Source of the DNA: a virus
Virus record (IMG/VR): IMGVR_UViG_3300027834_000301
Coordinates: 1 to 44,836 of that record
Length of the DNA: 44,836 bases
Direction: 5' to 3' (one strand)
The translations under genes and the position numbers were made by a program. A model generated the notes under the pieces. The model saw only the letters and a list, made by a program, of their open reading frames with translations. It had not been told where the DNA came from and did not search any database. Shown one piece after another: positions 945-5,783 of the stretch; positions within the stretch are counted from its first letter, which is position 1, and each line of letters begins with the position of its first letter.

Positions 945-973
945 CCGCCCGGCTGAGGAGCTGGGCGGTTTTT
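945..973 (+). terminator. intrinsic terminator after the LuxR-like gene
   Basis: CCGCCCGGCT (945-954) can pair with AGCTGGGCGG (959-968) through ten pairs including one G-U, around a GAGG loop, and is followed by five T residues. It separates the two leftmost regulatory genes from the small-gene run that starts at 1013. Confidence 0.78.
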
Positions 974-1256: not shown

Positions 1257-1505
1257 ATGGCAATTTCAAAAGAAAACATGCAGAAAATTCAGCGAGGTTT
1301 CGCTGAGATCTTTGGAGACAAAGGCACAAACAAAACCAAGGGGCCCGATAACGATGGCCGCTTTACTGAGGTAAGCTGTCACGTAAAAGAACCTTTAAAC
1401 GAGCACCACCTGCGCAAGCTGCAGGAGTACAAGCAGTACGACGGCATCCCGCACGCTTATGAGTTGAAACGCTCCGGGGCTGGTATTACAATAGTATATC
1501 AATAA
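1257..1505 (+). CDS. small hypothetical protein, 82 aa
   Basis: No family recognised. The protein is hydrophilic, with a Gly/Asn/Lys-rich middle and a C-terminal half that looks like a compact alpha/beta domain (LRKLQEYKQYDGIPHAYELK). It is preceded by the second repeated leader. Its stop overlaps the next start in a TAATG arrangement at 1503-1507, which indicates translational coupling with the following gene. Confidence 0.68.
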   Translation: MAISKENMQKIQRGFAEIFGDKGTNKTKGPDNDGRFTEVSCHVKEPLNEHHLRKLQEYKQYDGIPHAYELKRSGAGITIVYQ

Positions 1506-1768
1506 TGCAGTGCGATTGCATAAAGGGTATCGAGAAGAAAATTCTTGATATGGAAAAATGGCAAGGAAAAACGATTGAAAAAGTGGAATTCGTTTCCAAA
1601 GCTCTCATTTTTTCAAACCCATTGGAAGTGTTGACTACTTCCGAAATTGAAATTAAAGTAGAGGGGCGCAAGTCGTCTTTGAAACAAAGTATAATGCATA
1701 CTTATTGCCCTTTTTGTGGTGTAAAAACAAAAAAGGAAGAAACAGTTAAAGGGAATACTGGTGAATAG
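1505..1768 (+). CDS. small zinc-ribbon-like protein, 87 aa
   Basis: Two cysteine pairs are visible: C3 and C5 at the N-terminus (MQCDC) and a knuckle CPFCG near residues 68-72. These could bind one zinc ion. The pattern is common in small phage early proteins that bind nucleic acid or host RNA polymerase, but no named family can be assigned. The start codon overlaps the upstream stop (TAATG). Directly downstream begins a 250-bp structured non-coding stretch rather than another gene. Confidence 0.65.
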   Translation: MQCDCIKGIEKKILDMEKWQGKTIEKVEFVSKALIFSNPLEVLTTSEIEIKVEGRKSSLKQSIMHTYCPFCGVKTKKEETVKGNTGE

Positions 1769-1770
1769 TA

Positions 1771-2003
1771 GGGGCTCTGGGTCTGCCAAAGTATAGCAGG
1801 CTACCAAACATCCCCCAAGACGTGGATGGTAATGCGACACGGTTAATAACATTCCAGACTTTGGCCGGGGACTGATAGGAACCCCACCTGGTCAAACAAA
1901 CGGGAGCATCAGGAGAAATGCTCCGGAAACAGGCTGAACCTTTTGCTTGAGTCATAACAAGCAATTGCTGAACCCTGTTCTTGGTTCGATTCCAAGCGTT
2001 TGG
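1771..2003 (+). ncRNA. structured RNA with tRNA-like cloverleaf
   Basis: No convincing ORF fills 1769-2023; instead hairpins follow each other. Upstream helices: 1780-1786 with 1796-1802, 1809-1813 with 1824-1828, and a long one 1860-1866 with 1890-1896 extended by 1867-1870 with 1882-1885. Directly stacked on this is a cloverleaf: closing stem 1897-1902 with 1997-2002 (CAAACG/CGTTTG); a 7-bp D-arm-like hairpin 1903-1909 with 1918-1924 whose loop contains GG; a long arm 1928-1933 with 1974-1979 capped by 1943-1949 with 1958-1964; and a 5-bp hairpin 1980-1984 with 1992-1996 whose loop is TTCGATT flanked by G and C, the canonical T-loop. It lacks U8/A9 and a 7-bp acceptor, and the anticodon-like arm is far too long, so it is tRNA-like, not a normal tRNA. 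Function unknown; it may also act as a leader of the gene at 2024. Only hand folding was done. Confidence 0.55.
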
Positions 2004-2023
2004 CGAAATAAAAATTATCAATT

Positions 2024-2254
2024 ATGAGTAAAAGACCTTTCCAAATAATGGATGAAATGAACATCGCGGATAGTGAAAATGGTACTAAATCCATTGGCGT
2101 ATGCACTGATATTATCGATATGAAAATGGTTGCCGGCGGTGCTACGGTTACAATTGGAATTCCTGGCGAATTAATGCACGAATTAATGAGAGGTGAACGA
2201 ATGGCATTTTTGGTTTTACCAATTAAGGATGATTATATAAATCGAAAAGGTTGA
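2024..2254 (+). CDS. small hypothetical protein, 76 aa
   Basis: No family recognised. The C-terminal half (TVTIGIPGELMHELMRGERMAFLVLP) suggests a small alpha/beta domain. The ATG lies 21 bp after the end of the tRNA-like fold, so the RNA could be its leader and control its translation; this is inference. Confidence 0.6.
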   Translation: MSKRPFQIMDEMNIADSENGTKSIGVCTDIIDMKMVAGGATVTIGIPGELMHELMRGERMAFLVLPIKDDYINRKG

Positions 2255-2549: not shown

Positions 2550-2716
2550 CACCAGATAACCCAACCCAATCAAAACTAAACCTGCTCCGGGCAAGTTTAC
2601 AGCAGCTTTGCGACAGCGATTTATTCACCGTAACAGAGAAACAAAAGCTTGTTGCTCCCATTAAAAAGGAAATTGAAAAACTAACCAATAACCAAAAAGA
2701 AGCCCCAACAAAATGA
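2546..2716 (+). CDS. small hypothetical protein, 56 aa
   Basis: ATG 2546 to TGA 2716, starting MTPDNPTQSK. It is linked by ATGA overlaps both to the 83-aa gene upstream and to the primase-helicase gene downstream, which argues strongly that it is translated. The product is a mostly helical, Leu- and Lys-rich chain without a recognisable motif. Its position suggests a partner or loader of the primase-helicase, but this is only an inference from context. Confidence 0.68.
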   Translation: MTPDNPTQSKLNLLRASLQQLCDSDLFTVTEKQKLVAPIKKEIEKLTNNQKEAPTK

Positions 2717-5526
2717 GCTTTATAAAATGGCAAGACATCATCGAGCAGACCAACAATGGGCTGGATATCATCCTTAGTTATTATCCAGATGCCCGACAAG
2801 GCCTCGATAGAAAAGATAAAAAATTTAAGATCCGTGACGAAAAAACGGCCAGCGCTTCCATCCGATTCCACAATGGCGAATATAAGGTTACCGATTTTGG
2901 AGGTGATGAAAAGGAACGCAACGCTATTGGCGTGTGTATGCTGGAAACCAATAAGGATTTTAAGGAAGCCTGCAATTATCTGGCGGCGCATTTCAACATA
3001 AAAGGAGCAGAAAGCAATTGGACCCCAGCGAAACCAGACTTTGAAAGACGCCCCATAAAACAGGAAGAAAAGCCAGGGGAATATTCTTTAGAAACAAAGG
3101 ATTTTACAGACGAGGAGTTGAAAATTCTTGGGCCTTGTGTAGATGCTACCCATTGCCAGGATTATCAAATGTACAGTGTAAAAAGCTATTCATACGTAAA
3201 AGAAAACGAAGTGCTTACATTTTCATCCACAGACAACTTTCCCATTTTCGCATTCCAAGGTGAAGGCTGGGCGAAGCTATATAAGCCTCTGGATGACAAA
3301 AAATGGCGCTTCAGTTTTTTGGGCACGAAACCCGAGCGTTTTGTGTACGGAATGGCTTTGCTAAAAAAACAGTTCACCAAAAATAAGGAGCGTATTGATG
3401 AATTGATCCAGGACGAAACCCAAAAGTTGAGCAAGGAAGAAAAAGATCCGCGGGTAGATCAGGTTTTCATATGTTCCGGAGGTAGTGACGGTATGAACAT
3501 CCGCAGCTTTGGGTATATGGCCATCTGGTTCAATAGCGAAAGTGAGCAGATTAACTATGAGGAATATAGGCTCTTAAAAACTTGGGCAAAGAATATCATT
3601 TATGTTCCGGATCTGGACCATACCGGGATGCGCGTAAGTGTGGAACTCGGCTTAAAATATTTGGATATCAAATTAATGATTCTGCCGGCATACCTTAAAA
3701 ACTTCCGCGATAAGCGTGGCAATCCCTGCAAGGATTTCAAGGATTTTGTGGAGAAAATGTACGATTCGCGAAAGCCCAAAAAATTCAACTTTATGCTGGA
3801 TAAGCTTATTGAAAATGCTTTGCCCTGCGAATTTTGGGACTCTTCTTTTCAAGGCGAAAGAACAAAATATTACGTCCGTTGGACGCAGCTGTTCAATTTC
3901 CTTCGTCTGCAAGGTTACGGCCGCCATTCGGATGAGCAGACAAAGGATGGTTTCCAATATATAAAAGTTGACGGAAATATAATCCGTGTGGTACGCCCTT
4001 ACGAGATTGAAGCCTTTGTGCACACCTTTTTAAAGGAACGCCAAATGCCGATCGAGCTTCGCGATACGATGTATAAAACGTCGCTTTCGGATAGGGCGCT
4101 CACCAAATTGGACAGCATAGATGTAGATTTCAACATTGCCGATCGTAACCTGCAGTATATGTTTTTCAGCAACCAGGTTTGGGAAATTACTGCTGAAGGA
4201 ATTACCAATAAAAAAATGGGCGAAGTGGACCGTTACGTTTGGGAGAAAAAAGTTATCGAGCATACCGTTCATCTGCAGGACAATCATTTTGAAATTTCAA
4301 ATGACGTTCACGGCGATTGGGATATAAAAATACTGAAGGAAGACAATAAATTCCTTAACTATCTGGTGAACGTTTCCCGAATCCATTGGCGCAAGGATCT
4401 GGAAACTTTTTTTGAAGGTAAAAAAGCGGCCGCTAAAGAAGAATATTTCAGGCAGAACCAATTCAATATTGCCGCTCCAAATTTGAATGAAAATGAAATC
4501 CTTGAGCAGAAGCTTCACCTGATCAATAAAATTTACGCGCTGGGCTATATGCTGCACACCTATAAGAGTCCGCAACGCCCTTGGGCAGTTTACGCAATGG
4601 ACAATAAGGTGGCCGACATCAGCGAGAGCCACGGGGGTAGTGGTAAATCTGTATTTATGAAGAGCATTCAGCAGGTGTTGAAAGTGAATCACTACATAAA
4701 TGGCCGCGACAAGAACAAAACCCAGGACGATTTCATTTACCACGGCATTACGGACGAAACCGATTATACACTGGTGGACGACTGCCACCAATTTTTGGAT
4801 TACGGTTTCTTTTACAATGCCATTACCGGAGATTTGGACGTGAACAATAAGCAAGGAATGCGCTACATAATTCCTTTTGATAAATCGCCAAAGATTGGGT
4901 TTGCCAGTAACTTCCCTCCCAACAATATGGATCCATCGTTGGAGCGCAGATTATTGTTCATTGTTTTCAGTGATTACTATCACTACAACAAGGATGGCGA
5001 ATATGAGCAAACGCGTACCATAAGCGATGATTTTGAGGGAAAAACCCTGTTCAAGGATTTTACCGAAGATGATTGGAACGACTTCCTGAACCTATGTGGC
5101 CAGGCCATCCGTTTCTTTTTGTCTCAAAAGGAAAAAATAGATCCGCCAATGGGCAATGTAACCAAGCGAAACCTATTGAACGAAATGGGTGAGCCTTTTA
5201 AAAACTGGGCAGATGTTTTCTTCGCTTCCACTGATGATAATCCGTCGCCCAATTTGGATGCCTACGTTCAGAAAATACCAGCGCAAAAAGATTTCACCGA
5301 TACGGCTGGATGGAAGAGCGTGAGCTCGCAGAAGTTCAAGAAATTCCTCAAGGCATATTGTAGGTTGAATGGCTGGAACTATAATCCGGAAGCTGCAGGC
5401 GTGGATAGTGAAGGGCGTATACTGCACAACATTGAAGGCACTACTACCGAAATGTTTTACATAAAAACAAAGGAAAAAGTTAACACTCATAAACCTGGCG
5501 ATGATTTGCCATTTTATGAACAATAG
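2713..5526 (+). CDS. phage primase-helicase (primase-like N-terminus, TOPRIM-like domain, SF3-type helicase)
   Basis: A 937-residue replication protein. Residues about 10-100 resemble the N-terminal DNA-binding domain of CHC2-type primases (DEKTASASIRF, then ITDFGG-like KVTDFGGD) but lack the zinc-binding cysteines. Around residues 250-345 a TOPRIM-like region appears, with VFICSGGSDGMNIRSFG and YVPDLDHTG supplying acidic residues. The helicase part has Walker A GGSGKS (about 641-646), Walker B TLVDDC (about 685-690) and an SF3-like motif C/sensor GFASNFPPNN followed by ERRL (about 730-745), where the Arg can act as arginine finger. Known role: such proteins unwind and prime the phage origin. 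It is the only replication enzyme in the window, so the host polymerase must be used. Its start overlaps the 56-aa gene by ATGA. Confidence 0.85.
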   Translation: MSFIKWQDIIEQTNNGLDIILSYYPDARQGLDRKDKKFKIRDEKTASASIRFHNGEYKVTDFGGDEKERNAIGVCMLETNKDFKEACNYLAAHFNIKGAESNWTPAKPDFERRPIKQEEKPGEYSLETKDFTDEELKILGPCVDATHCQDYQMYSVKSYSYVKENEVLTFSSTDNFPIFAFQGEGWAKLYKPLDDKKWRFSFLGTKPERFVYGMALLKKQFTKNKERIDELIQDETQKLSKEEKDPRVDQVFICSGGSDGMNIRSFGYMAIWFNSESEQINYEEYRLLKTWAKNIIYVPDLDHTGMRVSVELGLKYLDIKLMILPAYLKNFRDKRGNPCKDFKDFVEKMYDSRKPKKFNFMLDKLIENALPCEFWDSSFQGERTKYYVRWTQLFNFLRLQGYGRHSDEQTKDGFQYIKVDGNIIRVVRPYEIEAFVHTFLKERQMPIELRDTMYKTSLSDRALTKLDSIDVDFNIADRNLQYMFFSNQVWEITAEGITNKKMGEVDRYVWEKKVIEHTVHLQDNHFEISNDVHGDWDIKILKEDNKFLNYLVNVSRIHWRKDLETFFEGKKAAAKEEYFRQNQFNIAAPNLNENEILEQKLHLINKIYALGYMLHTYKSPQRPWAVYAMDNKVADISESHGGSGKSVFMKSIQQVLKVNHYINGRDKNKTQDDFIYHGITDETDYTLVDDCHQFLDYGFFYNAITGDLDVNNKQGMRYIIPFDKSPKIGFASNFPPNNMDPSLERRLLFIVFSDYYHYNKDGEYEQTRTISDDFEGKTLFKDFTEDDWNDFLNLCGQAIRFFLSQKEKIDPPMGNVTKRNLLNEMGEPFKNWADVFFASTDDNPSPNLDAYVQKIPAQKDFTDTAGWKSVSSQKFKKFLKAYCRLNGWNYNPEAAGVDSEGRILHNIEGTTTEMFYIKTKEKVNTHKPGDDLPFYEQ

Positions 5527-5534
5527 CAAAGCGT

Positions 5535-5783
5535 ATGGAAATTTCAAAATTAAAGAAACCGGAAATAGTTCAGGTAACTATCAATCTTAGAAAAGCAGAA
5601 GTGGCAGATCTGGCCATCGACAAAAAGACGCTTAAACGCGGCCAACCCTTCTGGTTGAAAAGTATGATCACTGGCAAGTTTGATAACAAGCCCGAAATCA
5701 TTTCTCTAGAAACTGATCCTGTAGAATTAGCAGAATGGCTTCGTAATGATATGATCTATGTTCCAGCTTCATCAATTGAATAG
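5535..5783 (+). CDS. small hypothetical protein, 82 aa
   Basis: No family recognised. It begins 8 bp after the primase-helicase stop and is followed 2 bp later by another small gene, so it belongs to the same operon. The sequence is mixed alpha/beta, with VQVTINLRKAEVADLAI at the N-terminus. A role next to replication or DNA modification is suggested only by position. Confidence 0.65.
   Translation: MEISKLKKPEIVQVTINLRKAEVADLAIDKKTLKRGQPFWLKSMITGKFDNKPEIISLETDPVELAEWLRNDMIYVPASSIE

Follow-up and report, generated by a model that had tools for sequence, protein, structure and literature searches.

Bacterial defences that target tRNA are common, and phages are known to answer them with ordinary tRNAs. 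Small stable phage RNAs of another kind, RNAs C and D of phage T4, are associated with tRNAs, and their function is unclear. The use of phage tRNAs against tRNA-cutting defences has been documented (PMC11555353): the tRNA-Tyr of phage T5 counters retron-Eco7, and tRNA-Lys counters PrrC170 (PMC11555353). Many host factors bind tRNA at its elbow. Mimics of viral origin preserve this elbow while altering the rest (PMC4810234). At the locus described here, the presence of a structured, conserved tRNA-like RNA is well supported.

The locus lies in a 44.8-kb virus record (IMGVR_UViG_3300027834_000301 of IMG/VR, positions 1-44,836), which is referred to here as the window. The record belongs to a temperate tailed Bacteroidota phage with a tyrosine integrase, a head maturation protease, a tape measure protein and a methyltransferase. 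Among named phages, Polaribacter phage Leef_1 and Bacteroides phage BT-TP2 come closest to it when judged by the primase-like gene (2713-5526). The early rightward operon comprises, in this order, a 95-aa gene, a regulator (301-867, PHROG 10300), a terminator-like hairpin, two small genes and an 87-aa ORF, followed by the RNA, another two small genes and the primase. A promoter of flavobacterial type (TTTG, TACATTTG) was found ahead of the first gene in two relatives, and the window begins downstream of that promoter.

The terminator-like hairpin with its T run (945-973, plus strand; 10 bp, loop GAGG) was read from the sequence. It is positioned 3' of the early regulator and upstream of the segment holding the RNA, and L008, one of two further IMG/VR phages (L008 and L012) that carry the element, has one too. 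A terminator scan did not flag this hairpin and found no strong terminator in the early operon downstream of the RNA. All three phages have a small conserved 82-aa gene (1257-1505, plus strand) upstream of the RNA. One more gene stands between the two in the window, the 87-aa ORF (1505-1768, plus strand), which is confined to the window when compared with L008 and L012, and the 3' end of which overlaps the RNA block. Downstream of the RNA follows a 76-aa gene (2024-2254, plus strand), in place of which L008 and L012 have unrelated genes. Two repeats were also observed in this region: a leader repeat, AAGTAACTCAAGTTTAATTTAATA, ahead of two small early genes (977-1003 and 1224-1250), and near-identical copies of ATGACACCCGAAAATCAAACCCAATCAAAACTAAA at two gene starts (2257-2292 and 2545-2580).

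The whole conserved RNA block, as determined by blastn, nhmmer and alignment, spans ~272 nt (1745-2016, plus strand), and its start at ~1745 lies upstream of the interval 1771-2003 given in the original prediction. In the minimum-free-energy fold of the whole, the 5' domain (1771-1816, plus strand) consists of a GGGG/CCCC helix (1771-1774/1813-1816) enclosing a hairpin (1778-1786/1796-1806). A further helix (1860-1896, plus strand) is formed by 1860-1866/1890-1896 together with 1867-1870/1882-1885 and carries the loop ACUGAUAGGAA; pair probabilities were 0.66-0.98 for the outer helix and ~0.2 for the inner 4 bp, and the sequence is invariant in all three phages. The outer helix ends at the base directly preceding the closing stem of the cloverleaf, in line with the stacking that had been proposed.

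The 3' part is a tRNA-like cloverleaf with a four-way junction (1897-2002, plus strand), in which only three bases are unpaired. Each of the helices predicted for it was recovered: a 6-bp closing stem (CAAACG 1897-1902 / CGUUUG 1997-2002), a GG-containing D-arm-like hairpin (1903-1924, plus strand; 7 bp, loop NAGGAGAR with the GG conserved, pair probability 0.85-1.0), a long compound arm replacing the anticodon arm (1928-1979, plus strand), and a T arm (1980-1996, plus strand; CUUGG-UUCGAUU-CCAAG) with the perfect T loop UUCGAUU. The T-arm 19-mer CTTGGTTCGATTCCAAGCG is present in 50 IMG/VR contigs, mostly within tRNAs. As a separate observation, hairpins with GAAAGA (or GAAAAGA) loops were seen to precede tRNA genes or tRNA-like genes of phages by 2-5 nt (L068 3158, L069 290, L070 ~5770, L037 11567 and L004 ~5564); the window loop carries GACTGATAGGAA, a partial match to loops of this type.

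The element is tRNA-like and yet not a functional tRNA, as had been anticipated. The covariance-model search suggested for it returned no family: no match was obtained at gathering score in Rfam 15, matches at a permissive threshold were at chance level, and ARAGORN made no call at the element. The gathering score for tRNA (RF00005) was not reached, the best result being tRNA-Sec with 17.9 bits in L008 compared to a gathering score of 47. The T arm agrees with the tRNA T-loop consensus. A 5-bp anticodon stem with a 7-nt loop and U33 is missing, as the loop in the anticodon position measures 8 nt in L008 and is extended by 34 nt in the window and L012. The acceptor-like stem has 6 bp instead of 7, there are no U8/A9 spacer bases and no variable loop, and no 3' CCA is encoded, GCGAAA coming next. 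A T loop and a loop with conserved GG, between which an elbow like that of viral tRNA-like structures could form, are both present, as read from the sequence and the predicted fold.

When 1771-2003 was shuffled 20,000 times with dinucleotides preserved, a perfect T arm turned up 12 times and in no case together with a 6-bp closing stem abutting it. The T arm at 1980-1996 is the sole one in the 44.8-kb window, with both strands scanned. Comparison of folding energies with shuffled sequence, which had been named as a way to refute the structure, gave a divided result. The 3' 150 nt folded better than shuffles (z -2.73; 1/200), whereas stability was not above that of shuffled sequence for the whole 233 nt (z -0.73; 47/200) or for the 5' 89 nt (z +0.30), and for the 5' helices the argument therefore comes from conservation only. 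The minus strand of the whole element folded at least equally well (z -2.73). RNAfold favoured an alternative closing stem, 1854-1859/1998-2003 (~0.88), over 1897-1902/1997-2002 (~0.11); the energy model used gives no reward for coaxial stacking, which bears on this preference, and both stems may exist.

Between the window and the phages L008 and L012, identity was at least 97.5% over 1745-2016 outside one 34-nt indel. By comparison, fourfold degenerate sites in the flanking genes differed at ~30-50% overall, with 28-32% in the adjacent 82-aa gene and ~52% in the regulator. The gene at 1013-1225 is likewise nearly identical between the window and L008 (1/24 fourfold sites differ), and some of the RNA conservation may accordingly be due to recent exchange. 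The 100 nt upstream of the cloverleaf were conserved to the same extent as the cloverleaf itself.

Not one of the 55 modelled pairs is lost in any of the three phages. The proposed check for compensatory changes showed no covariation among these pairs, the three homologues compared being too alike. The sole variable pair is U1782-G1800, which becomes U-A in L012. The remaining substitutions fall in loops or unpaired stretches, and the L012 changes at 1910 and 1917 are both inside the loop of the D-arm-like hairpin.

DNA-pattern searches of IMG/VR yielded L008 and L012 as the only homologues, other matches being due to chance or to tRNAs. Protein-guided searches (6, 2 and 15 loci) revealed no diverged copy of the RNA. 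The RNA was absent from the examined stretches of L001-L003, L005, L006, L083-L088 and Leef_1. A 29-mer gave no match in GTDB genomes, and a gapped pattern gave four chance matches. No homologue was found by blastn against phages and plasmids; a Limosilactobacillus match was rejected, being a T arm within a tRNA array. In the tRNA array of a Limosilactobacillus plasmid (L017), two tRNA-like genes with middles too short or too long (943-1000 and 1601-1690) received no ARAGORN call.

The 34 nt that L008 lacks relative to the window and L012 sit in the anticodon-like loop. The window and L012 read AACAG-GCTGAACC-(26 nt)-GCTGAACC-CTGTT, and L008 reads AACAG-CCCATACC-CTGTT, with the 8-nt loop CCCAUACC in the anticodon position. 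In the window, the hairpin-forming 26 nt (1941-1966) are flanked by the two direct repeats (1933-1940 and 1967-1974). The L008 cloverleaf has the size of a canonical tRNA, and its 5' closing strand is located 54 nt ahead of the T loop, as in canonical tRNAs. From this alignment, the compound arm looks like a hairpin insertion with an 8-bp direct repeat into the anticodon-like loop, and the 26-nt insert within 1933-1974 looks like the product of a template switch or of an insertion accompanied by duplication. A CAU anticodon considered in the long arm was dropped, because the arm appears to be an insertion with flanking direct repeats. The indel takes out one nested hairpin whole, and its length is not divisible by three, which speaks against coding and for a noncoding RNA.

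The same RNA is directly followed by three different genes in the three phages, neither of its direct neighbours is constant among them, and the primase of L008 and L012 is of a different kind from that of the window. Since the RNA remains constant while the adjacent genes and the primase change, it is, judged by sequence comparison, a unit of its own. This makes both a leader of the gene at 2024 and an origin dependent on a single initiator less plausible.

Other tRNA-like RNAs were compared after the fact. Outside the tRNAs called by ARAGORN, a strict scan of 610 kb for T arms directly adjoined by an acceptor gave four matches (two of them copies of one RNA), compared to 0.9 expected. A T-arm pattern search of 23 related records gave 25 matches, compared to 4 for a control pattern. 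A loose tRNA-like scan of 27 loci was close to expectation (9 matches vs. 6.8), and only the strict matches were therefore used.

In BT-TP2 (L080 365-434, plus strand), an unannotated RNA with a 7-bp acceptor and a T arm, and without a D arm, was found 15 nt upstream of the first small gene gp1, in the same early slot ahead of the homologous primase. The prophage L004 carries a tRNA-Leu-like RNA (5582-5738, plus strand), missed by ARAGORN, with a perfect acceptor, a D arm and a T arm, in which an arm of ~100 nt replaces the anticodon and variable arms. The RNA of L092/L094 scored 50.5 bits with the tRNA model, has an over-long anticodon arm and elicited no ARAGORN call. Riemerella phage PJN03 has, at ~22.7 kb (L125 1090-1230, plus strand), an unannotated RNA with the acceptor GAAGUGG/CCACUUC, a D arm, a T arm and an expanded middle, ~40 nt in excess even of a tRNA with a long variable arm.

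A further RNA of ~200 nt is intergenic in the Riemerella phages PJN03, CRP19, PJA1, CRP6 and GRAP2 (L126 26739-26978, minus strand; L128 33470-33712, minus strand; L152-L154). It contains two T-loop hairpins, each in a short CUCCG/CGGAG-like stem with a GG, and maintains at least 96% identity while the flanking genes change; it is unannotated or lies under a hypothetical ORF. L090 was noted as a further candidate with a weak tmRNA score (21.1 bits). Several loci were rejected: L124, a tmRNA near the record edge (150 bits); L083 3645, inside an integrase gene; L100, L103-L105 and L112, with imperfect stems or no acceptor support; and L110, with an imperfect T stem.

The RNAs of the window, BT-TP2, L004, L092/L094 and the Riemerella phages appear to have in common an elbow-like part without a decoding arm, a trait that does not imply homology among them. 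Bacteroidota phages probably have several unannotated tRNA look-alikes, the window RNA among them. A wider generalization is doubtful: temperate Bacteroidota phages would possess an unrecognised and diverse class of RNAs that do not decode, retain the elbow, have the anticodon arm replaced, occupy variable slots of the early operon and serve to distract or recruit host factors acting on tRNA, with the window family, BT-TP2, L004, L092/L094 and the Riemerella double-T-loop RNA as members.

For the window RNA itself, the reading we put forward, tentatively and at somewhat less than an even chance, is a plus-strand noncoding RNA of ~230-270 nt of the early operon that acts in trans, through a tRNA-like elbow, as a decoy or recruiter of host tRNA-acting factors. 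Transcription of the early operon's plus strand would yield this RNA, which would be stable. Its 3' part, a predicted tRNA-sized four-way junction, can form a tRNA-like elbow, because the T arm is intact and a GG-bearing loop is present, and we infer that it does so. Missing from it are the parts needed for decoding: a 7-nt anticodon loop, U8/A9, a variable loop and CCA. The elbow may then bind, in trans, host proteins or RNAs that act on tRNA, such as defence nucleases or processing or modifying enzymes, and these factors would be occupied or recruited early in infection. A decoy or recruiter fits an early RNA in which the elbow is retained and the means to decode are lacking, and the idea gains strength from the further tRNA-like RNAs without a decoding arm that related phages carry.

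The main rival, rather unlikely in our estimation, is a cis-acting processing or stability element, i.e., tRNA-like punctuation in the early polycistronic mRNA, where cutting by host RNase P/RNase Z would create a fresh 5' end near the downstream start codon. Consistent with it, the tRNA-like part ends ~15-30 nt upstream of an ATG in the window family, BT-TP2 and the Riemerella RNA, its orientation is that of the operon, and tracking with a particular gene would not be required. However, the conservation of the upstream 100 nt, equal to that of the cloverleaf, goes beyond the needs of a cut site, the acceptor has 6 bp and no CCA, and the L092 RNA has no directly following gene, the next ATG opening a 5-codon frame.

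Lower probabilities attach to three further rivals: antitermination, a DNA-level site and a tRNA remnant. An RNA acting in cis on RNA polymerase in the early operon, modifying it as HK022 put does, would account for the early-operon position, the independence from the adjacent gene and the conservation, and a terminator-like hairpin does occur within the same operon. That clear terminator, however, lies upstream of the RNA, with no strong one detected downstream in the early operon, and a tRNA-like fold is not part of put RNA as known, which makes antitermination improbable. Distinctly improbable, too, is a replication origin or recombination site merely resembling an RNA: the element is near replication genes and its minus strand folds at least as well as the plus strand, but L008 and L012 keep it despite a different primase gene, the pairs U1782-G1800 (U-A in L012) and G1864-U1892 can form only in plus-strand RNA, and no iterons were noticed.

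A decayed tRNA gene or phage attachment site, which had also been suggested, would explain a T arm identical to that of many tRNAs in a phage with a tyrosine integrase. This origin is very unlikely: the element is located within the early operon, ~2 kb away from the integrase; among ~50 loci with the identical T arm, none of the fetched tRNAs shares the acceptor strand CGTTTGG; conservation far exceeds that of nearby fourfold sites; and the keeping of every helix is unexpected for a remnant. A regulatory leader controlling translation of the gene at 2024, an earlier idea for this element directly ahead of that gene's start codon, is equally improbable, and so is a riboswitch, because the flanking genes change and the three phages have different downstream genes behind the same element.

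When compared with known systems, the window RNA is outside all Rfam families and is akin to viral tRNA-like RNAs. It resembles tmRNA (RF00023) in combining a long extra arm with a T arm and an acceptor, but no tag ORF was found, and neither the window nor L008 matched the tmRNA model. The likeness to RNAs C and D of phage T4 is one of description, and the hosts differ. Like the put RNA of HK022 (PMC9378689), it is a structured RNA of a phage early operon; put, however, acts on the polymerase transcribing it and has no known tRNA-like fold. The Bacillus cereus pseudo-tRNA tRNA-Other (PMC3399842) is also a bacterial tRNA-like RNA, located next to mobile DNA and non-working in translation, but is a predicted chromosomal pseudo-tRNA, again likened by description. 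The tRNA-like structures of viruses, that of TYMV for example (PMC4810234, PMC5723415), mimic the elbow with divergent topology elsewhere, as the window RNA may do; they are parts of RNA virus genomes, whereas the window RNA is intergenic in a DNA phage and has no chargeable end.

With the anti-defence tRNAs of phages (PMC11555353), it shares its origin as a phage RNA, the T arm, a putative tRNA-like elbow and a possible anti-defence role. In contrast to those canonical and functional tRNAs, it has no decoding anticodon arm, U8/A9, variable loop or CCA, and it possesses a 5' domain. If the proposed role is true, non-decoding tRNA look-alikes overlooked by gene finders would constitute a different phage answer to tRNA-targeting defences, and the carriers BT-TP2 and the Riemerella phages, being isolated phages, make tests of it practicable.
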